From the NCBI GenBank assembly GCA_012839765.1, contig DUMW01000088.1, positions 1 through 64,000 on the forward strand: 64,000 bases of DNA, read 5' to 3'. This document shows positions 25,368 through 44,890 of this stretch, piece after piece. Positions within the stretch are counted from its first letter, which is position 1, and every line of letters starts with the position of its first letter. The notes under the pieces were generated by a model that saw only the letters and a program-made list of their open reading frames with translations, did no database searches and was not told the origin of the DNA. The translations under genes and the position numbers were made by a program. This DNA comes from Bacillota bacterium (GTDB taxonomy: Bacteria > Bacillota > Limnochordia > DUMW01).

Positions 25368-25594
25368 CTGCGTCCGGTACAGAGACTATCTATGGGGCGA
25401 AAGCTCCTGCGGTAGCTCTTGGTTCACCGTGGGATTTGCAGGAAGTGACCTCCGGCGCGACGAACAGAGACTACACCGGGGGCTAGCCAACTGGTCAAAC
25501 TGGTGAACCGTCGTATAGGGAAGGGCAATATTTGGGTAAGGGGAATTAGGGGCTTTCTCCCACGGCATTTTAAATACTTGGAGGCAGGATATTG

Positions 25595-27655
25595 ATGTTT
25601 TCTTCTGATTCCGCAAATGGGTCAACGGATCCCAAAAAGAGGCTACAAAGTTACTTACAAGATTCCCTTTTCCGGCAACGGGAGGGGTTTCCCCATGGTT
25701 CTAGCGGGGATATCTTGGCCCTATCGGATCCGCCCCACTTTACCCTCTGTCCTAATCCCTTTTTGCAGGAGTTCTTGGCGGAACGTAGCAACGGGTTAGA
25801 TTCCACCTACCACCGGCAGCCCTACCGAAAGAACGTCGCGGAGGGGAAGAACGACACCCTATACCGGGCCCACTCCTATCACACGAAGATCCCCTACAAA
25901 GCCATCATGCATTATATCCTCCACTATACAGAGCCAGGTGATGTGGTCCTGGATGGCTTTGCCGGTTCCGGGATGACGGGCCTTGCGGCCCAACTCTGTC
26001 AGGATGCCCGGGTGGTGGCCTCCCTGGGTTACCAGGTGGATGAAGAGGGAGCAATTCGTACCAAAGAAGGGGACTTTGTCTCCCAACTGGGGCCCCGCTG
26101 GGCGATACTAAACGATCTTTCCCCCGCGGCTACTTTTATTAGCTACCACTATAACCGCCCCGACCGGGATTTTGCTCCCCAGGCCCGGGAGCTCCTTCGG
26201 GAGGTGAAAGCCCAGGTGGGCTGGATGTACGAGACCCGGCACAGGGATGGCCAGACCAAGGGTTGGATCAATTACGTGATCTGGTCCGACGTGTTTACCT
26301 GTCCCGTCTGCAAGGAGGAGCTTGTTTTCTGGGAGGAGGCGGTGGATGCGAACAGCCGGCGGATTCTGCAGTCCTTCCCCTGTAAAGGGTGCGGCAGTTC
26401 TCTGTCGAAGCGGGCCCTAGTACCGGTGTTGGAAGAGAAATATGACGAAGCCTTAGGCCAGTACGTTACCCAGGCGAAGCAGGTGCCGGTCTTGATCAAT
26501 TACAGTGTGCAAGGCCAGCGCTATGAGAAAGTACCCGATGCAGAGGATCTCCAGTTGCTCGGGGCCATTGAGGCTTGGGAGTGCCCCTACTGGTATCCCA
26601 CGGATCCCTTACCCGCAGGGTACAGTACCCGCCAGCCCCAAAGGTCCCATGGTCTTACCCATATCCACCATTTTTACTACAAACGGGCCGTGGTGACCTT
26701 GGCGGCCTTTGCCCAGTTGGCCCGGGAAAAATGTATCGATGCCCTGTGGCTGATCACCGCGGTGGCCGAAGGGGCCTCCCGCCTGAACCGGGAACGGCCC
26801 TGGGGGATGCCCAGCAAACTCTCGGGCACTTTGTACGTTAGTTCCCTCACCAGGGAGATCAACGTCTTGGATTTCATCGAGCGCAAAATCCAGCGCTATC
26901 CCCAAAGTGGCCTCGACACCTCCCATGTCTTCTGTCAGTGTGGTTCCACGACGGATCTTGGCTTGCCAGACCTTTCGGTGGACTATATCTTCACCGATCC
27001 TCCCTTTGGGGGGAATATTATGTATTCGGAGCTCAATTTCCTCTGGGAGGCGTGGCTGCGGGTCTTTACCAATAATGGACCCGAGGCCATCGAAAACGCG
27101 ATGCAAGGCAAGGGGCGAGAGGAATACCGGGATCTGATGACCCGGTGCTTTCGGGAATACTACCGGGTTTTGAAGCCGGGCCGGTGGATTACCATCGTCT
27201 TTCATAACTCGCACAACGAAGTGTGGCACGTCCTACAGCAAGCCCTTAAGGAGGCGGGGTTCATCATCGCAGATGTCAGTGTCCTGGACAAAAAACAGGG
27301 GAGCTTCAAGCAGGTGACCGGGGAGCGGGTCTTAAAGGAGAATTTGGTGGTCTCGGCTCAAAAACCCTGGGAGGGCGCCCTGTCCGCAAGGGAACTGGAA
27401 CGGAAGGAAGCGCCCTGGGTGTGGCAGGTGGTAGATGCCTATCTTGCCCGGTTGCCGGTGTACAAGGAGGGTGAGCAGTTAGCCGATGATCCCCAGAGAA
27501 AACCCCAGCGAATATACGATCAACTGGTGGCCTATTGTCTGGAACGGAACATCATTGTGCCTATGTCGGTCCGGGAGTTCTATACGGGTTTGGAGGAGCG
27601 GTACTACCGGGAGAAAGATATGTATTTTCTTTCCTCCCCGGGGGAAGGGGCCTAG
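25595..27655 (+). CDS. large DNA methyltransferase with zinc-ribbon insert
   Basis: About 686 residues. The SAM-binding motif I VVLDGFAGSGMTGLAA lies near residues 118-134; a zinc ribbon (CPVCKEELVF ... CKGCGSS) near 236-268; the catalytic motif IV FTDPPFGGN near 467; and LKPGRWITIVFHN further on. The order I, recognition insert, IV suits an alpha-class amino-methyltransferase (N6-adenine or N4-cytosine). It resembles the Zn-ribbon DNA methylases of BREX-like and DUF1156-related defence loci. The preferred ATG (25595) follows GGAGG. No nuclease, PglZ, BrxC or helicase gene is adjacent, so it is orphan here. Confidence 0.8.
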   Translation: MFSSDSANGSTDPKKRLQSYLQDSLFRQREGFPHGSSGDILALSDPPHFTLCPNPFLQEFLAERSNGLDSTYHRQPYRKNVAEGKNDTLYRAHSYHTKIPYKAIMHYILHYTEPGDVVLDGFAGSGMTGLAAQLCQDARVVASLGYQVDEEGAIRTKEGDFVSQLGPRWAILNDLSPAATFISYHYNRPDRDFAPQARELLREVKAQVGWMYETRHRDGQTKGWINYVIWSDVFTCPVCKEELVFWEEAVDANSRRILQSFPCKGCGSSLSKRALVPVLEEKYDEALGQYVTQAKQVPVLINYSVQGQRYEKVPDAEDLQLLGAIEAWECPYWYPTDPLPAGYSTRQPQRSHGLTHIHHFYYKRAVVTLAAFAQLAREKCIDALWLITAVAEGASRLNRERPWGMPSKLSGTLYVSSLTREINVLDFIERKIQRYPQSGLDTSHVFCQCGSTTDLGLPDLSVDYIFTDPPFGGNIMYSELNFLWEAWLRVFTNNGPEAIENAMQGKGREEYRDLMTRCFREYYRVLKPGRWITIVFHNSHNEVWHVLQQALKEAGFIIADVSVLDKKQGSFKQVTGERVLKENLVVSAQKPWEGALSARELERKEAPWVWQVVDAYLARLPVYKEGEQLADDPQRKPQRIYDQLVAYCLERNIIVPMSVREFYTGLEERYYREKDMYFLSSPGEGA

Positions 27656-35746: not shown

Positions 35747-35775
35747 ACCTCCATTCGACAGGGATGGAGGTTTTT
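35747..35775 (+). terminator. terminator after the LysM gene
   Basis: ACCTCCAT pairs with ATGGAGGT around a 9-base loop and runs into TTTTT. It isolates the following glycoside cluster. Confidence 0.8.
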
Positions 35776-35940: not shown

Positions 35941-35961
35941 TACAATCAAAACGTTTTGATT
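35941..35961 (+). promoter_or_regulatory. LacI-type operator at the glycoside-cluster promoter
   Basis: A perfect 18-bp palindrome AATCAAAACGTTTTGATT (35944-35961) with the central CG typical of LacI-family operators. A -10-like TACAAT (35941-35946) overlaps its left edge, with TTGGGT 15 bases further up, so repressor binding would cover the transcription start. About 225 bases before the first gene. The LacI protein at 41092 is the obvious candidate ligand. The stretch between operator and first gene (35962-36185) shows no other feature. Confidence 0.72.
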
Positions 35962-36185
35962 TTGACCGGACAAGGAACGTTGGCATCGAAAAGGTGTACC
36001 GAGGATTTCTCCATGTGGGTGCCCCGGAGGACAGTCCCTGGGAAGGGGGGAGGGCCGCCAAAGGACCGCGGGTGTGGAAGAGGCATAGGACAGAGCGATG
36101 GCAGGGAAGAACTGGCTGAATGGGTCGAACAGGGTGAACAAAGGAAAGGGCAAAGCCTAGATATTCCTGGAAAGGGGACTAACTA

Positions 36186-36725
36186 ATGAAGCGGGTAAGT
36201 CTTGTATTGGTGTGTTTGTTAGTGTTTTCCGGTCTTGCTGTCGCGGCGGAGGTCTCCCTGCTGTCCTTGGGGGACGCCCCAGGCCAGTGGGAGGTTTCCA
36301 TTGGAAAAGGGGCCCTCGATGGTGCCATCAAGGCTATGGAGCAGGAAGGCGAGGCGGGGGTGGAAATGTTCTACAGCCATCCGGCACAGTCAGGCTTTGA
36401 CTACATCGACTACAACTACATCCCGCAATCACCGTTGAATGTGCTACTGAAGACCATCAGGGTCAGGATCGATTTGCCCGCTGACCCGGATCAATACCTG
36501 GAGCTTTTCCTTTACGATGCTTCCGGTGGGGTCTGCTCCTTCACTTTCCCCACGGGCCAAGACAAGGTTGAAACCTTTACCCTGCGGAACTGGGACTTCC
36601 AGGTGTGGACCGGGGGCTTCAACTTCACCGAAGTGACCTTAATCCGTTTCCGAAGCATCGGTGATGCAGGTACAAAGGCCACCACCGGTCGTTATGTTCT
36701 TTACGAACTCGGCTTGGTGGACTGA
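36186..36725 (+). CDS. secreted protein with a single YIDY/RSIGD module
   Basis: 179 residues: a clean signal peptide (KRVSLVLVCLLVFSGLAVAA) and one beta-rich domain. The module starts QWEVSIGKGALDG and contains GFDYIDYNY, YLELFLYDASGG, CSFTFPTG, FTLRNWDFQVW and LIRFRSIGDAG. The same domain recurs in the frameshifted gene at 38129 and near residues 105-265 of the enzyme at 38833. I do not recognise it; its presence with glycosidases and its jelly-roll-like pattern suggest carbohydrate binding (inference). First gene of the cluster; no ribosome site is strong, AAGGGGAC being nearest. Confidence 0.75.
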   Translation: MKRVSLVLVCLLVFSGLAVAAEVSLLSLGDAPGQWEVSIGKGALDGAIKAMEQEGEAGVEMFYSHPAQSGFDYIDYNYIPQSPLNVLLKTIRVRIDLPADPDQYLELFLYDASGGVCSFTFPTGQDKVETFTLRNWDFQVWTGGFNFTEVTLIRFRSIGDAGTKATTGRYVLYELGLVD

Positions 36726-36827
36726 GCAACGGGAAGTGGTGGGTGCGTAATACAGGCATCCCGAGACTGCGTCGTTTTTCTGAAAGACCGAAGAAACAGA
36801 TACATACATCCGGGTGGGGTATGGTGG

Positions 36828-38090
36828 TTGACGCCTCACCCCTTGGGGGGGACTGGTTTGTTTACGCGGTTGTCTTGTGGGCTATTGCTTCTTTTGCTCC
36901 TTGCTCTGCCGGGTCTGACGTCCGCTTCGGAGTTGGTGACCATCATCTATATGGATCACCTGGTGCCGCAGCAAGCTAAGGCCCTGGAGCCTATATTTGA
37001 AAAGGCCCGGGCGGAGATCGGTGTGGACGTTCAGTTAATTTACACCAGCTATGGGGAGTTTTTAGACAAACTGGTGGCGATGGTGATCTCCGGTAACGCC
37101 CCGGATCTGATCAATGCCACCAACTCCAGTGTGTTTCTAGTGGAGGAGGGCATCCTCGGGGGGATGGATGAGTATCTCCAAACCGGGGAAATCACCCGGA
37201 CCATTCATCCTCCTGCTTTGGAGGCCCTTACCTGGCGGGGTGAATTGTTCGGGATCCCCTTTGCGGTAAACACCTGGTTGCAGGGTTACAATCGCTTCAT
37301 GTTCGATGATGCGGGCTTAACCTATCCGCCAGGGGAGTGGGATGCTTCCTATTGGACCTGGCAGGACTATTTTGACGTGGCCAAGAAGCTCACGCTGGAT
37401 CTCAACAACGACGGTACCATCGATCAGTGGGGAGTGGCCATGCTGCCGGAGATGCATTGGTTGCCTTACTGGTGGGGGGATACCCTGCTGGAAGAAGGCG
37501 CAAAGACCCTTCGGGTCACTCCTGCGGTGGTGGAGGCCATTCAGTTCTTCGCCGATTACGGGCCCACCGTGATGAGCACCGGAAGCCTGGTGGGTGGTAC
37601 TGCCGCCATGACAGGCTTTGGTTCCTGGGTAACCATCGATTACGCCAAACAATTGCCCGACTTTGATCTGGCCCCTAATCCCCGAGGAACCATCGCCTGG
37701 GCACCGGCCCATGTGGATGGGTTGACTATTCTGCGGCAAAGTGAGCAGAAGGAGGCCGCATGGCGGTTTATCACCTGGTTGGTGAACGATCCGGAAAATT
37801 TGAAAATGTACAACCTGGCCCGCCACGGCTACGGCACCTTGTCGGCTTACATGGGGGATCAATATCCCTTGGATTATGCCGCGGCCTATCCCGAGTTTCA
37901 GCTCCGGTGGCAGGTGCTTATGGATGCCACCATGTACTTGGGTAAAGATGTGGCCATGTATAATGCCAGTTGGCAGGAGATCAGCCCGATCCTGAGCTTT
38001 GCCTGGTCCCAAATCTTCGGTGGCCAAAGCTCAGCCGCCACCATGTTGGAACAGCTGCGGCCGAGCATGGATTTCTTGCTGCGACAGTGA
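36828..38090 (+). CDS. extracellular sugar-type solute-binding protein (family 1)
   Basis: 420 residues, an ABC-type binding protein of the maltose/oligosaccharide class. Signal segment LSCGLLLLLLLALPGLTSA, then VTIIYMDHLVPQQAKALEPIFEKA, FLDKLVAMVISGNAPDLINATNSS, LFGIPFAVNTWLQGYNRFMFDDAGL and the C-terminal lobe HVDGLTILRQSEQKEAAWRFITWLVNDPEN. The start is a TTG about nine bases after GGGTGGGGT. No permease or ATPase gene lies in the cluster, so it must share a transporter encoded elsewhere. Its place between secreted carbohydrate proteins suggests capture of the glycan product. Confidence 0.88.
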   Translation: MTPHPLGGTGLFTRLSCGLLLLLLLALPGLTSASELVTIIYMDHLVPQQAKALEPIFEKARAEIGVDVQLIYTSYGEFLDKLVAMVISGNAPDLINATNSSVFLVEEGILGGMDEYLQTGEITRTIHPPALEALTWRGELFGIPFAVNTWLQGYNRFMFDDAGLTYPPGEWDASYWTWQDYFDVAKKLTLDLNNDGTIDQWGVAMLPEMHWLPYWWGDTLLEEGAKTLRVTPAVVEAIQFFADYGPTVMSTGSLVGGTAAMTGFGSWVTIDYAKQLPDFDLAPNPRGTIAWAPAHVDGLTILRQSEQKEAAWRFITWLVNDPENLKMYNLARHGYGTLSAYMGDQYPLDYAAAYPEFQLRWQVLMDATMYLGKDVAMYNASWQEISPILSFAWSQIFGGQSSAATMLEQLRPSMDFLLRQ

Positions 38091-38128
38091 AGGATAACTC
38101 GATAATCAAGAAAGGAAGCGGTGAAAAC

Positions 38129-38709
38129 ATGTACAAGGGAAAAGCTATTTACCAATTGACTTTCATCCTGTTGGGACTTTTGGTTGCCGCCTGTGTGCCC
38201 ATTGGACTGGAGGACCAACCGGAGCGGTGGGCCCTTGTCATTGAGGACGGGCGGATTCCTTCCCTTTGGGAAGTGTCGGTGGCGGCAGGAGCCCTCGATG
38301 GCAGTGTGGAAGTATATTACGACGAGACCACCCAAAAGCACAGTCTTAAACTTAATTACCATCATTCCGAAGCCGCTGGTTTTAACTACATCGATTACAC
38401 ACGACCTGTGGATTTGGATCTGGAGAACAAGGAAATAGAGATGGTTGTCCATACTCCCCAAGATCCGAATGCCTATTTATCCTTTACGATCTAAACGACC
38501 GGCACGCGATCCGTGATTTGGAAGGAAACGGTCACTGGCAAACCATTCGGTTGGGCAACGGCGATGTCCAAGAGGTCGCGGTGGGCTTTGACTGGTCCCG
38601 GGTGAAACTGATCCGGTTCCGCTCCATCGGCGATGCAGGACAAGAGGCTACCCAGGGGGCGTATTTGGTAGACAGTATCATTGTGCTGGGCTCATTCCAA
38701 GAGAAGTAG
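38129..38709 (+). pseudogene. frameshifted lipoprotein paralogue of the 36186 protein
   Basis: ATG 38129 opens a lipoprotein signal (ILLGLLVAAC, lipobox VAAC) and the same module as at 36186: SLWEVSVAAGALDG, AGFNYIDYTRPVD. The frame stops at TAA (38492-38494) just after NAYLS. In the next frame the homology goes on without a gap: LYDLNDRHAIRDLEG, then VKLIRFRSIGDAG ... AYLVDSIIVLG, ending at 38709. One base appears to be missing near 38478-38484 (TATCCTTTACG). Sequencing error, a recent mutation, or frameshifting cannot be distinguished here. Confidence 0.8.
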
Positions 38710-38832
38710 GAGGTGTCCCGGAAGCAGGGTTGGTAGCCCGGCTTTTGTGGAGGCCCCAGAAACTGTTTTCCGGCCCAAGGGCGGTCGCTGGTCGACGGCC
38801 TTTGGGCCCACCATCACGGAAGAACGGAGAGG

Positions 38833-41016
38833 ATGGGACCCATGGGTAGGTTTTCCACAGGAATCATAATGGTCTTGACCTTCGTCTTGAGCCTGGGCGC
38901 CGGAAGCGCCCATGGTCAGTTATTGGATCTGTTGCCCCCTTATCTTGGCGAACAAAGGGAAATCATCGATGATTTCACCGGTGATATGGACCGCTGGTCC
39001 CATTCCCCGAATGTCACCTTGCGTAAGACATTGCAAGAACGGCCGGGTGCCGTCTCTTTGCAGGTGGACTATCTGTTTACCCCCCAAGCCCGGGAGATGA
39101 CCCTGGAGGTGGAACTGGACTCCCTAGTGGAGGCCTTCCACTGGCAGCGGCAAGATCTGGTGGTGAGTCCGGCAAGCTGGTCCGCCGGCGTGGGGGCCAA
39201 GGCCACCGGGGGAAGTGTCTCCTCCCATCTTTGGGGGGACCGGGAGGTAGCCTCCTTCAACTTTCAGCATTCCTCGAGCCAAAGCTTCGATTACATCGAT
39301 TATTACGTCGAGCTTGCGCCCCAGGACTTTACCGACAAGCTCCTAGGTCTTAGTATCAATCGTCCGGCCACCGACGATGCCTATTTGGAGCTTTATCTGG
39401 TAGACAGTGGTAACCGCAAGGCTTCCTACACCTTTCCCAAAGGCTCTGGCGCCTGGGAAGAGGTGACCTTGGCCAACCGGGACTTTCATTGCTGGGACCC
39501 GGCCTTCGATTTTTCCCAAGTACGGCAGCTCATCTTCCGTTCCATCGGTGATATCAGTGCTCGGCCGGTGGAGGGGGCCTATCTTGTTGATGGGGTGTTC
39601 CTGAAGTGGACCGATGGGGATCTTATGGTGAACGTTGTGCCCCGGGGAGAACGGCTAAGGTTTTACCTGAAGGGGGACGGGTCCCACAATCTGCTGCGGG
39701 TGCTGTGCTATGACGTACTCCGACAGGCGTGGATCGAACAAGCCCGGATTCCCTTGGACTTTTCCGGTTGGAAGCATATCGAGATCCCCGCCAACAACCC
39801 CTTCTATTTCTATTACAACACCGTCTCGGCCTTGCGCTTTTCCATTAGCCAAAGGGGCGACGACCTCCTCCAGGCGGGACGGGTGATTATTGGGGACCTG
39901 ATGTTTGTCAATTACGAACCGGTGGCTGTGCCCCTACCGGAGAAGACGGCTCCCCAGCCCGTCTTCCTTTCCTGGGGGACTCCCAACTTGACCCAGCTGG
40001 AAGTGGGAGCCAAGATAGGGGTCAATGCCCACTGTGTACCGATGCCCTTTACCGCTGGGAATGTCTATCAGACCGAAAGTGCTGTCCTGAATCTACTTCC
40101 CTTGTTGGAACGGTCCCACGGTCTTGGCTTGCTTACGGGACTTCACTTTTACAACAACCCGTCGGCCCTTTTTGCCCGCCGGTACCGGGACTGGTTCCCC
40201 CTCAACGGGGAAGGGGTTTCTTATTACGATTACTATCCCGGTGGGAGTTTTCTTTCCCTGTGGCATCCTGAGGTTCAGGAGCTTTGGAAGCAACATATCA
40301 AGGAAACCCTGGCCCAGCTGCGGGCTAACGGTGCCCTGGACCTCATTGATCTTGTCATGATCTCACCGGGGGAAGAGGGGCAGCTGGGTTACCAGTGGGA
40401 TCATATATGGGCCTTCGATCCCTATGCCCAGGAGGCCTATCGGGAGTATCTTCGGACCTTCTATGATCATGACATAGACAGATTGAACGCGGATTGGGTC
40501 ACGGACTACAGGGATTTCGACCACATCGTCCCACCCCAGGATTACTATCCAGACCGGGAACACTGGGTGTTTCAGGAGTTTTATCGGTACAGTATGCTTA
40601 AGTGGTGTGTTCAGCTGGCCTCCGCGGTCAAGGAGGTCTATGAGCCCCAGTACTGGTTGTTCCTTACCCACACCGCGGCAGGCTATCCCCAACGATATTT
40701 CGCCGGTCGCTACCCCCACTATTACGTGGAAAACCTCCGGCGCCTGGGGGTGCTAGACATCGCCAACATCTCGGCCCTGGACTGGCACGGTGTGGAGGAT
40801 ATCACCTACATCAAAAGCTTTGGTGTGTGTCCCGTGGCGGAGATTGATGTGCGGCCTACCCCGGAGCGGCTACAGTGGACCTTTGAACAGGCCCTAACCT
40901 ACGGCTTCACCGGGGTCTATATCGGTATTCTAGAGAACCTAAGTGTCGGTACAGAACTTTCGGCGGTGGGCAAGATGTGTGAAACGCTCATTTTGGAGTA
41001 TGCCCCCTCCTTCTAA
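38833..41016 (+). CDS. secreted GH42-like glycoside hydrolase with YIDY/RSIGD module
   Basis: 727 residues. Signal peptide (about 1-29, ending AGSAHG); a short N-terminal beta domain; the YIDY ... IFRSIGD module (about 105-265); a second beta domain (about 268-370, LRFYLKGDGSHNLLRVLCYD ... PLDFSGWKHIEIP) shared with the paralogue at 42146; then a TIM-barrel catalytic part (about 385-725) of GH42-like pattern: LTGLHFYNNPSALFARRYRDWFP, WDHIWAFDPYAQEAYREYLRTFY and LNADWVTDYRDFDHIVPP. Candidate acid/base Glu514 or Glu515 in SPGEEG; candidate nucleophile Glu670 in AEIDV. The substrate is unknown; extracellular by its signal peptide. Confidence 0.8.
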   Translation: MGPMGRFSTGIIMVLTFVLSLGAGSAHGQLLDLLPPYLGEQREIIDDFTGDMDRWSHSPNVTLRKTLQERPGAVSLQVDYLFTPQAREMTLEVELDSLVEAFHWQRQDLVVSPASWSAGVGAKATGGSVSSHLWGDREVASFNFQHSSSQSFDYIDYYVELAPQDFTDKLLGLSINRPATDDAYLELYLVDSGNRKASYTFPKGSGAWEEVTLANRDFHCWDPAFDFSQVRQLIFRSIGDISARPVEGAYLVDGVFLKWTDGDLMVNVVPRGERLRFYLKGDGSHNLLRVLCYDVLRQAWIEQARIPLDFSGWKHIEIPANNPFYFYYNTVSALRFSISQRGDDLLQAGRVIIGDLMFVNYEPVAVPLPEKTAPQPVFLSWGTPNLTQLEVGAKIGVNAHCVPMPFTAGNVYQTESAVLNLLPLLERSHGLGLLTGLHFYNNPSALFARRYRDWFPLNGEGVSYYDYYPGGSFLSLWHPEVQELWKQHIKETLAQLRANGALDLIDLVMISPGEEGQLGYQWDHIWAFDPYAQEAYREYLRTFYDHDIDRLNADWVTDYRDFDHIVPPQDYYPDREHWVFQEFYRYSMLKWCVQLASAVKEVYEPQYWLFLTHTAAGYPQRYFAGRYPHYYVENLRRLGVLDIANISALDWHGVEDITYIKSFGVCPVAEIDVRPTPERLQWTFEQALTYGFTGVYIGILENLSVGTELSAVGKMCETLILEYAPSF

Positions 41017-41091
41017 AGCCAGGGAGTGGGGAAGTCTTCGGGGGTGAAACCGAAGCAGGTCTGCGGGGTCACCCCCGCAGGGATTTAGTGG

Positions 41092-42123
41092 ATGTTTAAG
41101 GAGACAGAAAAAGCAGGTATGGTGACCATTAAAGATGTGGCAAGGAAGGCCGGTGTTTCTCCCAGCACTGTCTCCCATGCCTTCAGTGGGAAGCGGAAGA
41201 TTAGTGCAGAGGTGAAGGAGCGGATCTTTCGGATCGCCCGGGAGCTGAATTACGAGCCCAATGCGGCGGCTACCAGCCTTGTGACCAAGAAAACGGAGAA
41301 TATCGGGATGTGTGTTTCGTCCTTTTCTTCCTCGGTGGGGGCCTTTGTGCAGAAGCTGTCCGAGGGCATCGCGACGGAACTGGCGAAAGCCGGCTATAGG
41401 CTTCTTTTGATGACAAGACCCGCGGGTACCGCTGAGGAGGAATACTACGAAAACATCAACAGCGATAAAGCGGTGGATGGGATTATCCTTACGGATCCGA
41501 ACGTCCAGGACAAGTATTTAGCTAATCTTTTGGACCGGAAAATGCCGTTGGTGGTGTTGGGCCGGCCGAAAATTCCCTATAGATACCACGTGGACAACGA
41601 TAACGTAGAAGTGGTGCTGCTCGCCCTCTCCCATCTAGCCCAACTGGGCCATCGGCGGGTGGCCTTCATCAACGGCCCCCCGGAGATGACTGTTAGTGAG
41701 GACCGCCTGGCGGGGTACCACCGGGGAACGCAGCGGTTGGGTTTAGAGATAGATGGCGGGTTGATGAAACATGGGGACTTCACCTCCGAAGGAGGCTACG
41801 CCGCTATGGCGGAACTTTTACAGGGAGAGCGGCAGTTTACCGCGGTGGTAGCAGCCAATGACGCCATGGCGATCGGAGCCATTAAGGCCCTGCGGGCCGC
41901 GGGGTTACGGGTGCCGGAGGAGGTCAGCGTGGTGGGGATCAACAACGATTCCATCTCCGAACTTTTTGATCCGCCCCTTACCACCGTGGACATCCAGACC
42001 GTGGCCCTGGGGCAGGGGGCAGCCCGGATGCTGTTAGCCTTACTGGCAGGGGATACTCCAGAGGCTCCCCAAGTTGTGCCAAGCAAACTGATCGTACGGG
42101 GATCGACCCGTAGGTTATCTTAG
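41092..42123 (+). CDS. LacI-family transcriptional regulator
   Basis: 343 residues. N-terminal LacI helix-turn-helix TIKDVARKAGVSPSTVSHAFSGKRKISAEVKERI and hinge helix NYEPNAAATSL; then a periplasmic-binding-like sensor domain (VDGIILTDPN, LGHRRVAFINGPPEMTVSEDRLAGYHRG, FTAVVAANDAMAIGA, PLTTVDIQTVALGQGAARML). It lies inside the glycoside cluster, so it is the likely local repressor acting on the palindrome at 35944 and induced by a product of the enzymes. ATG 41119 (MVTIKDV) is an alternative start. GC-rich hairpins (about 41036-41080) precede the gene. Confidence 0.93.
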   Translation: MFKETEKAGMVTIKDVARKAGVSPSTVSHAFSGKRKISAEVKERIFRIARELNYEPNAAATSLVTKKTENIGMCVSSFSSSVGAFVQKLSEGIATELAKAGYRLLLMTRPAGTAEEEYYENINSDKAVDGIILTDPNVQDKYLANLLDRKMPLVVLGRPKIPYRYHVDNDNVEVVLLALSHLAQLGHRRVAFINGPPEMTVSEDRLAGYHRGTQRLGLEIDGGLMKHGDFTSEGGYAAMAELLQGERQFTAVVAANDAMAIGAIKALRAAGLRVPEEVSVVGINNDSISELFDPPLTTVDIQTVALGQGAARMLLALLAGDTPEAPQVVPSKLIVRGSTRRLS

Positions 42124-42145
42124 TAAAGAAGGGTGTGTTAGGCTG

Positions 42146-43744
42146 ATGGCTGATGGCAAACTCCTGAATTCTGTACCGGACAAAGTGCTTGATGATGTGA
42201 TTAATCTCACCGGGGACTTTGCACATCTTGGGGGCTGGGAATATACGGACCGTTGTGACCTGAAGGTGGTCTGCGACGACGATGAGCGGGGGCGGGTGCT
42301 GGAAGTGACCTATACCCTGACCGAAGCAGAGGAGATCCACGTGACCTTGCCCTTTGCAGAGACCTGTACCCCTGGCCGGGAACGGCTCCGTTTCTGGCTA
42401 CGGGGTGACCATTCGGGGAATGTCCTGAATGTAGCCTGCTGGGACCGGACCGCGGGCCAGTGGTTGTGCCAGGCCACCATCCCTCTGGATTTTTCCGCCT
42501 GGCGGCACATTGAGATCGGCGCGAGTAACCCCATTTACCATTTCCATCGGGACATCACTGCCTTTCGTTTCTCCCTCCAACGGGGGGACGGGGCGGTTAC
42601 CTCCGGCAGTATCCGGTTTTCTCCCATGGAGCTGGTTTCACCCCGGCTGATCCCTGGTAACATCCCCGGGAGCAACCCGCCAAGGGACCCCTTGTTTCTT
42701 TCTTGGGGTGTGGCGGCACCCGAGGAGATCGCCCAGGCGGCAAAGATCGGGGTGAATATGCACTGTGTTCCCATCGAGTTTCCCACTTCCCTGGCCAAGA
42801 CGCGCCTGGCCACCGTCAAAGAGGTGGTCGTTCGGTGCCGGGAGCAGGGGATGAAGGTGGGCCTGCACTTTTACAACAACCCCACCGCCGAATTTGCCCA
42901 ATACCACCAGGAACTGTTCCCTCTCAACGAAGAAGGGGTTTCCTATTACGACTACTATCCCGGGGGAAGCAGTCTGTCCCTATGGCATCCCTATGTGCGC
43001 AAGCTTTGGCGGGACCACATTGCCACTGTACTGCGGTGGTTGGCAGAGGAAGGGGTGCTGGAAGAGATCGACGTGGTGATGCTTTCCCCCGGTGAGGAGG
43101 GGGAAGTGAGCTACCAGTGGGATCATATCTGGGCCTTCGATCCATATGCCACCGCGGCATACCAGGACTACTTGCGTCGCTGTTACCCCCAGATCCATCA
43201 CTTGAATGCCGACTGGGGCACGGGCTACAACGCCTTCGAGGAAATTGCTCCCCCCAGCAGATATTACCCCCACCGGGCCTGCTGGGTGTTTCAGGACTTT
43301 TACCGTTGGTCCATGCTGCTTTGGTGTGTGGAGCTGGCGGAGGTGGTGCAAAGCTTTGCCCCGGGACGGGAGTACCTGTGGCTTACCCATAGCTACGACA
43401 CCTATCCCCTACGGTTTAACTCCGCCCGCTACCCCTACTTTTACATCGAGAATCTGAAGAAGTTGGGCCTCATCCATTATGCTAACATCGCGGCCTCGGA
43501 TTGGCAGAGTGTGGAGGACATGGAGCACCTCACAAGGTTGGGGGTCAACCTGATTGCCGAAATCGACGTGGTTCCTACCCCGGAGCGACTGGCCTGGACC
43601 TTTGCCCAGGCGAAAAAGTATCTGTGCAACGGAGTTTACGTGGGGGTCCTGGATAATCTTTCCCAGGATAGCACCCTAACCGAGGTGGGCCGTTTATGTG
43701 CTGAACTGATCCGGGACTTCCGGGACCATCTGGGTGCCCAGTAG
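42146..43744 (+). CDS. cytoplasmic GH42-like glycoside hydrolase, paralogue of 38833
   Basis: 532 residues, no signal peptide. N-terminal beta domain (about 15-160, DLTGDF-type start; LRFWLRGDHSGNVLNVACWD, PLDFSAWRHIEIGASNP) matching the second domain of the secreted enzyme, then the TIM barrel (about 180-530): VGLHFYNNPTAEFAQYHQELFP, WDHIWAFDPYATAAYQDYLRRCY, LNADWGTGYNAFEEIAPP, YPYFYIENLKKLGLIHYANIAASDW. Candidate catalytic Glu317/318 (SPGEEG) and Glu472 (AEIDV) align with the paralogue. It probably completes inside the cell what the secreted enzyme starts; it lacks the YIDY module. 23 bases after lacI. Confidence 0.82.
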   Translation: MADGKLLNSVPDKVLDDVINLTGDFAHLGGWEYTDRCDLKVVCDDDERGRVLEVTYTLTEAEEIHVTLPFAETCTPGRERLRFWLRGDHSGNVLNVACWDRTAGQWLCQATIPLDFSAWRHIEIGASNPIYHFHRDITAFRFSLQRGDGAVTSGSIRFSPMELVSPRLIPGNIPGSNPPRDPLFLSWGVAAPEEIAQAAKIGVNMHCVPIEFPTSLAKTRLATVKEVVVRCREQGMKVGLHFYNNPTAEFAQYHQELFPLNEEGVSYYDYYPGGSSLSLWHPYVRKLWRDHIATVLRWLAEEGVLEEIDVVMLSPGEEGEVSYQWDHIWAFDPYATAAYQDYLRRCYPQIHHLNADWGTGYNAFEEIAPPSRYYPHRACWVFQDFYRWSMLLWCVELAEVVQSFAPGREYLWLTHSYDTYPLRFNSARYPYFYIENLKKLGLIHYANIAASDWQSVEDMEHLTRLGVNLIAEIDVVPTPERLAWTFAQAKKYLCNGVYVGVLDNLSQDSTLTEVGRLCAELIRDFRDHLGAQ

Positions 43745-43819
43745 TCTCCAGATCATACCGCAGGGAGCTTGATCGCACAGCAATTGATATGCGGATCTTT
43801 TATGGGGGTGCAGCTTGGC

Positions 43820-44890
43820 ATGGAATGGAAGGAAGATTGGGCAGCCGCAAAGGAGCAACTGACAGATTGGTGGCAGGGTAAGGGTTTTGTGATCAGTGTC
43901 TTTGCACCCAGGGAGAAACCCAGAGAGAATGTGCCCCGGCCCAACCCGCCGGCCTCCCTGGAGGAGAGGTGGCTTGATCCGGGGTATCGGGTACAGCAGG
44001 CGGAATATGAGATGTCTAGGACCTACTACGGCGGGGGCGCCTTCCCCTACTTCGACACCCACATCGGTCCTGGGAACCTGGCTACCTTTATTGGTTCGGT
44101 GCCGCGGTTTTCCCCCATCACCGTGTGGTTTGAACCCTGTTCGTGGAGACTGGCCGACGATGTGCCCTGTACCTTCACTCCGGACAACTATTGGTTTATC
44201 CGGCAAAGGGAAATCCTTCTCCACGGGGTAAAGAAAAGCAGTGGCCGGTATCTGGTGGGGATGCCCGATCTCATCGAGAACATCGATACCCTAGTGTCGC
44301 TTTACGGTGTAGAGGAGATGCTCCTGGGCCTAGTGGAGCATCCGGAGATCATTAAGCGCCGGCTTCGGGAGATCAACCAAATCTATGCCACCGTTTTCGA
44401 TTTGTTCTATGAAGAAATCAAGGATGAAGACCAGGGCAATGCCTATTGTGCCTTCAAAATCTGGGGTCCGGGGAAGACCGCAAAGGTGCAGTGCGACACT
44501 GCGGCCATGTTCTCCCGGGATATGTTTGCAGAGTTTGTGGTACCCTTTCTGAAAGAACAGTGCCAAGCCCTGGATTTCTCCCTTTTCCATCTGGATGGCA
44601 CCCACTGTCTGGTGCATCTGGAGGAGTTGCTTCGCATTGAGGAGCTAAACGCGATCGAATGGACCCCCCGGTACGGTGTGGAAGGGGGCGGGGATCCCGT
44701 TTGGTATGGTCTTTATCGTAAGATTTTGGAGGGGGGTAAAGGGGTCCAGGCCATTGGGGTGAAGCCCGGGGAGGTGATCCCCCTGTTGAACGCAGTGGGT
44801 ACCAACGGTGTGTTTATGCTAGTAAATGCCTCTTCGGAACAGGAGGCCAAGGAGCTACTGCATACCGTCCAGCGGCGGTTTCGCCGGTAG
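43820..44890 (+). CDS. uroporphyrinogen-decarboxylase-like (URO-D/MtaA fold) protein
   Basis: About 356 residues of the URO-D superfamily, which includes heme-pathway decarboxylases and corrinoid methyltransferases. Seen: LTDWWQGKGFVISVFAPREKP, PDLIENIDTLVSLYGVEEMLLGLVEHPEIIKRRL and FSLFHLDGTHCLVHLEELLRIEELNAIEWTP. The MtaA zinc triad (HxC...C) is not evident; HLDG takes its place, as in URO-D-like proteins found near sugar genes. Activity unknown. ATG 43820 follows GGGGGTG; a TTG at 43769 is possible. Last gene of the cluster. No clear terminator follows (44891-44999). Confidence 0.82.
   Translation: MEWKEDWAAAKEQLTDWWQGKGFVISVFAPREKPRENVPRPNPPASLEERWLDPGYRVQQAEYEMSRTYYGGGAFPYFDTHIGPGNLATFIGSVPRFSPITVWFEPCSWRLADDVPCTFTPDNYWFIRQREILLHGVKKSSGRYLVGMPDLIENIDTLVSLYGVEEMLLGLVEHPEIIKRRLREINQIYATVFDLFYEEIKDEDQGNAYCAFKIWGPGKTAKVQCDTAAMFSRDMFAEFVVPFLKEQCQALDFSLFHLDGTHCLVHLEELLRIEELNAIEWTPRYGVEGGGDPVWYGLYRKILEGGKGVQAIGVKPGEVIPLLNAVGTNGVFMLVNASSEQEAKELLHTVQRRFRR

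Follow-up and report, generated by a model that had tools for sequence, protein, structure and literature searches.

The window analysed here is a 64,000-nt stretch of contig DUMW01000088.1 from the 2.56-Mb genome of a Bacillota bacterium (DUMW01; assembly GCA_012839765.1, G000 in our set). Positions 36186-44890 hold seven genes on one strand, separated by gaps of 23-124 bp and preceded by a palindrome that we take for a LacI-type operator. Our favoured reading, which we hold to be fairly probable, is that they form a substrate-induced glycan-use operon with its own LacI repressor, a pair of GH-A-like glycosidases and a URO-D-like modifying protein. As a LacI and binding-protein glycan operon it is of a familiar type. 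What is unfamiliar is the enzyme family, with an apparently spliced-in module, and the carbohydrate-linked branch of URO-D-like proteins. The elements of the locus are:

35944..35961, no strand: putative LacI-type operator, a perfect 18-bp palindrome AATCAAAACGTTTTGATT, unique in the genome
36186..36725, + strand: small secreted protein, 179 residues, with a signal peptide and one copy of the shared module; no Pfam or NCBIfam match
36828..38090, + strand: solute-binding protein of the sugar ABC type (by Pfam); TTG start, signal peptide, no lipobox
38129..38709, + strand: lipoprotein with the shared module, interrupted by a stop at 38492-38494; both halves match the 36186 protein
38833..41016, + strand: secreted enzyme, 727 residues, with a signal peptide, a beta domain apparently interrupted by the module (about 98-266) and a clan GH-A-like barrel
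41092..42123, + strand: LacI-family regulator, 343 residues (Pfam LacI PF00356, 1.8e-17; Peripla_BP_3 PF13377, 9.3e-42)
42146..43744, + strand: cytoplasmic enzyme, 532 residues, with a CBM-like beta sandwich (40-164), a (beta/alpha)8 barrel (183-532) and candidate catalytic residues E318 and E472
43769..44890, + strand: URO-D/corrinoid-methyltransferase superfamily protein (by family profile and fold), 373 residues, with an HLDG motif (H274, D276)

The operon and its regulator

The sequence-only reading of this window had proposed seven co-directional genes behind one LacI-type operator, with no terminator between them, forming one LacI-controlled glycan locus. This has held up. All seven lie on one strand at or very near the positions where that reading placed them. 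No strong terminator was found within the operon; terminator-like matches occur at the level of shuffled sequence, and the best of them (35747-35771) lies upstream. Control by LacI is supported by the Pfam matches of the regulator and the binding protein and by the uniqueness of the operator. The 41092 protein has both the LacI helix-turn-helix and the periplasmic-binding-like domain, which places it in the LacI family, and the 36828 protein matches SBP_bac_8 (1.1e-24) and SBP_bac_1 (2.2e-23), which places it among the ABC sugar-binding proteins. NCBIfam offers only general LacI and binding-protein relatives with scores under the cut-offs, the weak top match of the binding protein being GanS.

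The palindrome has a perfect 16-bp core, ATCAAAACGTTTTGAT (35945-35960), extended to 18 bp by flanking A/T, and sits about 225 bp 5' of the first gene. The 16-bp core occurs once in the window, where 0.12 sites would be expected at up to three mismatches, and a 14-bp core has this sole site in the whole genome at up to one mismatch. A palindrome that is single in the genome fits a regulator dedicated to the operon (35944-44890), and to judge by sequence the LacI regulator probably binds it. A promoter scan at the operator found no consensus site.

The LacI and ABC-binding-protein glycan operons of Bacillota likewise combine a regulator, a binding protein and a secreted plus a cytosolic glycosidase. 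The present operon differs from them in having no permease genes, in its small binding-type proteins that share a module with the enzyme, and in its URO-D-like gene.

An enzyme family near GH42 and GH14

The two enzymes had been read as a secreted and a cytoplasmic version of one enzyme, and their barrels are indeed 51% identical and of the same fold. Relatives were sought in 61 related genomes and in sets of 73 genomes for the class and 399 for the phylum. We consider the family unassigned because no close relative turned up in the 73 class genomes and only a single full-length one, at 32% identity, among the 399; this protein, in genome G259, is encoded beside a transposase and unrelated genes. 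Collections of genome contigs and of viral contigs held no relatives, neither query protein matched plasmids, and PHROGs gave nothing useful. Fragmentary matches in other genomes include GH42, GH35 and GH14 proteins. A check on whether the pair are ordinary members of a characterised family found no close match to a solved structure or curated family. Judged against Pfam, NCBIfam and the PDB, both are probably glycosidases whose family, close to GH42 and GH14, is unassigned.

The AlphaFold2 model of the cytoplasmic enzyme, built on three sequences (mean pLDDT 66.7), has a beta sandwich at 40-164 and eight barrel strands. E318 lies just past strand 310-313 (beta4) and E472 just past 468-471 (beta7), so the model has the two glutamates of clan GH-A. 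Both residues are invariant in all three family members, the two window enzymes and the G259 relative. Against the PDB, Foldseek returns glycosidases: GH14 (3voc, 1e-12), a GH35-like protein (7vl0), GH42 (4uoq), GH164 and others, at identities of about 14% or less. The beta domains carry no Pfam name; the N-terminal sandwich shows a CBM_11-like trace. The earlier description of a GH42-like barrel with unrecognised beta domains therefore stands as to the beta domains and a GH-A-like barrel, but the similarity to GH42 itself extends over only about 75 residues.

That similarity is a weak Pfam match to PF02449 (E 4.1e-5 and 6.6e-4; 23.5 bits, against a cut-off of 21, and 19.6 bits). It runs from residue 330 to 406, profile positions 145-229, and covers 75 of 376 positions, not the whole catalytic barrel. 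In the Pfam model of GH42 the acid/base Glu is E136 (PMC5725463); the match starts nine positions past it, so the acid/base Glu falls near E318. Profile-profile comparison with hhalign gives 97.8% over 200 columns. The GH42 beta-galactosidases (4uoq, 1kwg) share with the window enzymes the clan fold and the segment past the acid/base, an aromatic-rich helix of the form LN.dW.t.Y..F..I.PP. The window enzymes differ in their other beta domains, in lacking the Asn-Glu pair, and in ending with the barrel, without the trimerisation domain (PF08532) that the class's own GH42 genes have; identity in the fold match is about 14%.

The GH14 beta-amylases provide the best Foldseek match, and their GPSGELRYPSY region aligns with SPGEEGEVSYQW of the window enzymes. 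By eye, their CLEM and C-terminal strand regions also resemble the AEID and VGVLDNLS of the window enzymes. The differences are that hhalign gives 87.6% (211 columns), that in this alignment the GH14 acid Glu is two residues off the invariant E318, and that GH14 enzymes are inverting and alpha-specific. By profile and by the GE(L)RYP acid motif the window enzymes do not qualify as GH14: they gave no PF01373 match, and none was found in the genome at E <= 1e-10. GH148 (EngU) was also considered. It too is a GH42-like orphan of clan GH-A from uncultured lineages with a CBM-type module (PMC5725463), but EngU has a CBM4 between its two catalytic glutamates and an INNEN motif, whereas in the window enzymes nothing interrupts the barrel, and it is the N-terminal beta domain that carries the inserted module. 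Architecture and motif disagree, and we reject membership. If the window enzymes are active, they would be the founding members of a glycosidase family that stands between GH42 and GH14 and lacks the usual Asn-Glu pair, and this would be relevant to the divergence of these barrels.

A module shared by three products

The shared module noticed earlier is real. The 36186 protein matches the secreted enzyme at 2.3e-24 and the two halves of the lipoprotein at 4.9e-10 and 7e-8. All three copies lie inside the operon, and no further copy was found elsewhere in the genome. The module has an invariant H followed by F-x-Y-I-D-Y. The frameshift reported in the lipoprotein gene is also there: after a lipobox (LVAAC) the in-frame stop ends at 38494 and homology resumes in another frame to about 38709. 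This is either a real pseudogene or an assembly error. Pfam has nothing for the open part.

The module was probably inserted within the N-terminal beta domain of the secreted enzyme. When residues 98-266 are excised, the score of the alignment to the cytoplasmic enzyme rises from 228 to 266 and the beta domain becomes continuous; this alignment supersedes a full-length automatic one, which misplaced the N-terminal domains. We call the insertion likely rather than proven because the first half of the beta domain alone aligns weakly (35 versus 23.6 +/- 4.3 for shuffles). From its occurrence in a small secreted protein, a lipoprotein and an enzyme, we infer that the module has a binding role.

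The URO-D-like protein

The 43769 protein itself has no Pfam or NCBIfam match, and placing it required its family members, which are present in 21 of the 61 relatives. PF01208 matches 8 of 20 members at E up to 10 (best 8e-5). The family as a whole matches PF01208-type proteins at 96.9% in hhalign, with HLDG aligned to HSCG/HSDG. The AlphaFold2 model (pLDDT 90.6) is closest in Foldseek to the Methanosarcina mazei methyltransferase 4ay8 (3e-7), with UROD at about 1e-5. On the fold comparison, the profile match and the motif alignment together, the earlier URO-D label is correct at the level of the superfamily, and by profile and predicted fold the protein is a member of the UROD/MetE-like superfamily. 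W35, D167, D173, D243, H274, D276, G277, H283 and W298 are invariant in the 20 aligned members, all of which have Asp at the zinc-type Cys position. Other URO-D proteins of the genomes examined have HxCG or HxDG where 43769 has HLDG.

The neighbours of the family are mostly carbohydrate genes: split transketolases, a DUF1537-type kinase, PdxA, DHDPS-like, apiosidase-like, GH43-like and weakly GH127-like proteins, and further GH116, FGGY kinase, nucleoside hydrolase and sulfatase genes. A LacI regulator or binding protein is nearby at 6 of 19 family loci versus 1 of 37 corrinoid loci. In the window's own genome the HxDG family has three members, and about 15 further genes belong to the URO-D superfamily. 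One of these further genes is a strong match (4e-55) that could be hemE, and we set porphyrin synthesis aside as the role of 43769.

The UroD superfamily includes corrinoid O-demethylases and dehalogenases, some of them without zinc (PMC13222342, PMC10418091, PMC8630106); MtvB and CdmB are cases in which zinc is absent (PMC13222342; PMC10418091). The 43769 family resembles the corrinoid methyltransferases MtaA, MtvB, OdmB, MtoB and CdmB in fold, in the position of the H-x-[C/D]-G motif and in co-occurring with a corrinoid protein and activator. It differs in its Asp at the motif Cys position (20/20), in recurring in sugar loci, and in that 43769 is not encoded beside a corrinoid gene. The operon contains no such gene. 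Elsewhere in the genome, locus L089 (5095-8517; G000:C22:40000-57000) has adjacent genes for a RACo-type activator, a pterin-binding methyltransferase and a stand-alone corrinoid protein; none of their neighbours is a URO-D-family partner.

A stand-alone corrinoid gene is present in 20 of the 21 genomes with the 43769 family versus 11 of the 40 without it (Fisher p 3e-7, phylogeny not corrected). Counted per taxonomic family the figures are 10/10 versus 2/6 (p about 0.008, computed by hand); neither relatedness nor anaerobic life is controlled for. Four genomes, all from one taxonomic family, have a member no more than 30 kb from a corrinoid gene; G018, one of the four, also has a pectate lyase and a GH106-type gene there, and G004, another, has an apiosidase-like gene in the cluster. 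This gene set recalls rhamnogalacturonan II, for which 2-O-methyl fucosidases have been described (PMC12282258). The 43769 product may possibly demethylate methyl-ether sugars. The sequence-only reading had suggested action on a methylated or otherwise modified sugar; the carbohydrate loci and the corrinoid co-occurrence are circumstantial evidence for this and fall short of a demonstration. The open-access literature searched yielded nothing on this branch of URO-D proteins, nor on demethylation of sugars by corrinoid systems.

How the operon may work, and the alternatives

We propose that the binding protein, with the module-bearing small protein and lipoprotein, would trap a glycan outside the membrane. 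There the secreted enzyme, anchored on the glycan through its beta domains, would cleave it, and the binding protein would hand the products over to an ABC permease whose genes lie elsewhere. The cytoplasmic paralogue would then complete hydrolysis; in both enzymes E318 and E472 (numbered as in the cytoplasmic one) would serve as acid/base and nucleophile. Finally, the URO-D-like protein would modify the released sugar or aglycone, possibly through methyl transfer. Gene content, operator, fold class, module sharing and insertion site rest on sequence or computation; localisation, catalysis, substrate, regulation and the role of the URO-D-like protein are what we deduce. Several observations weigh against this proposal. 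The operon has no permease gene, and its lipoprotein gene is interrupted. In clan GH-A an Asn usually directly precedes the acid/base Glu; it is absent here (GEEG in both window enzymes, GMEG in G259), which makes it uncertain that hydrolysis is of the retaining kind. The family offers just three barrel sequences, and the enzyme model is of modest confidence.

The enzymes could instead be very divergent GH42 beta-galactosidases in an ordinary galactoside operon. The PF02449 match slightly over its cut-off, the hhalign result and GanS as the best weak match of the binding protein all suit this idea. We nevertheless think it unlikely: the match spans a fifth of the profile, there is an N-terminal beta sandwich instead of a trimerisation domain, the acid/base motif differs, and GH14 folds score equally well. 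A decaying lineage-specific insertion, with part of the operon no longer functional, would account for the interrupted lipoprotein and for the absence of the operon from relatives at an otherwise uninterrupted junction. But the other six genes are open, both enzymes keep their catalytic residues, base composition equals that of the surroundings, and a single frameshift in a draft assembly may be an error. Decay therefore seems to us quite improbable.

A further alternative makes the URO-D-like protein the methyltransferase I of a corrinoid O-demethylase, moving methyl from a methyl-ether sugar released by the glycosidases to the stand-alone corrinoid protein encoded elsewhere, from which tetrahydrofolate would receive it. 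The fold matches, the zinc-free precedents, the partnerless L089 cassette, the tracking of corrinoid proteins and the proximity to corrinoid genes in four genomes, one also with a pectate lyase and a GH106-type gene and another with an apiosidase-like gene, argue for it. Against it, about 15 other URO-D proteins could serve the L089 cassette, the cassette is found also in genomes without the 43769 family, phylogeny and an anaerobic lifestyle confound the co-occurrence, the zinc-type Cys is replaced by Asp throughout, and the corrinoid gene lies outside the operon. We find this alternative doubtful. The fuller version, in which the operon joins a new glycosidase family to an anaerobic sugar O-demethylase, the pair freeing a methyl-ether sugar and the HxDG-branch protein passing its methyl by the same route, strikes us as a long shot. 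It would matter if true. The methyl-ether sugar route that we found described (porphyran) requires oxygen: it is the P450 demethylation of 6-O-methyl-galactose (PMC10033563), to which such an O-demethylase would be the oxygen-independent counterpart. It would also explain anaerobic use of plant and algal methyl-ether sugars and account for the repeated presence of URO-D genes in the carbohydrate loci of the class.

Genome position and related loci

Upstream of the operon are genes that we take to be of fakA/degV, rsmD, coaD and ylbJ type, with patatin and LysM genes; downstream are presumably genes for YceD and a FapR-like protein, then plsX, fabH and fabD. Of 29 relatives examined, 28 have ylbJ, LysM or patatin immediately upstream of yceD, and nothing operon-like separates the two. 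Because this junction is uninterrupted, the seven genes either were inserted in this lineage or are a rarity that it alone has retained. No compositional sign of recent horizontal transfer was found; GC and third-position GC (GC3) of the operon equal the surroundings, which leaves room for an old insertion or one of native origin. The sequence-only reading had called the locus its best candidate for an undescribed system. As an undescribed enzyme family this stands, no close match having been found. A conserved multi-gene system it is not, as far as seen: no genome examined has the gene set, and the lone enzyme relative sits among unrelated genes.

Elsewhere in the window, 25592-27655 encodes a 687-residue protein with an N6/N4 DNA methylase domain, for which no partner was identified. 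Some URO-D genes have settings of their own. Loci L039, L041, L042 and L043 share a conserved cluster of about 12 genes, among them two split transketolases and transaldolase-like, GH43-like, weakly GH127-like, URO-D-like, DUF1537 kinase, PdxA and DHDPS-like genes. At L054 (3259-7251) a family member is directly upstream of methionine-type ABC genes (a NIL-domain ATPase and an NlpA lipoprotein), which hints at methyl chemistry. Several of the 15 or so extra URO-D genes of the window's genome (L173-L186) adjoin LacI or GntR regulators or binding proteins.

The layout of LacI regulator, small secreted protein, binding protein and large secreted protein recurs whole or partly in the same genome at L181, L187 and L050. 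These loci (L181, 8623-14664; L187, 4318-9725; L050) and L093 have a regulator, one or more small secreted beta-rich proteins, a binding protein without an adjoining permease and a large secreted protein. At L050 (2762-6178), a LacI, binding-protein and URO-D locus, the secreted protein has 1139 residues and no Pfam match.

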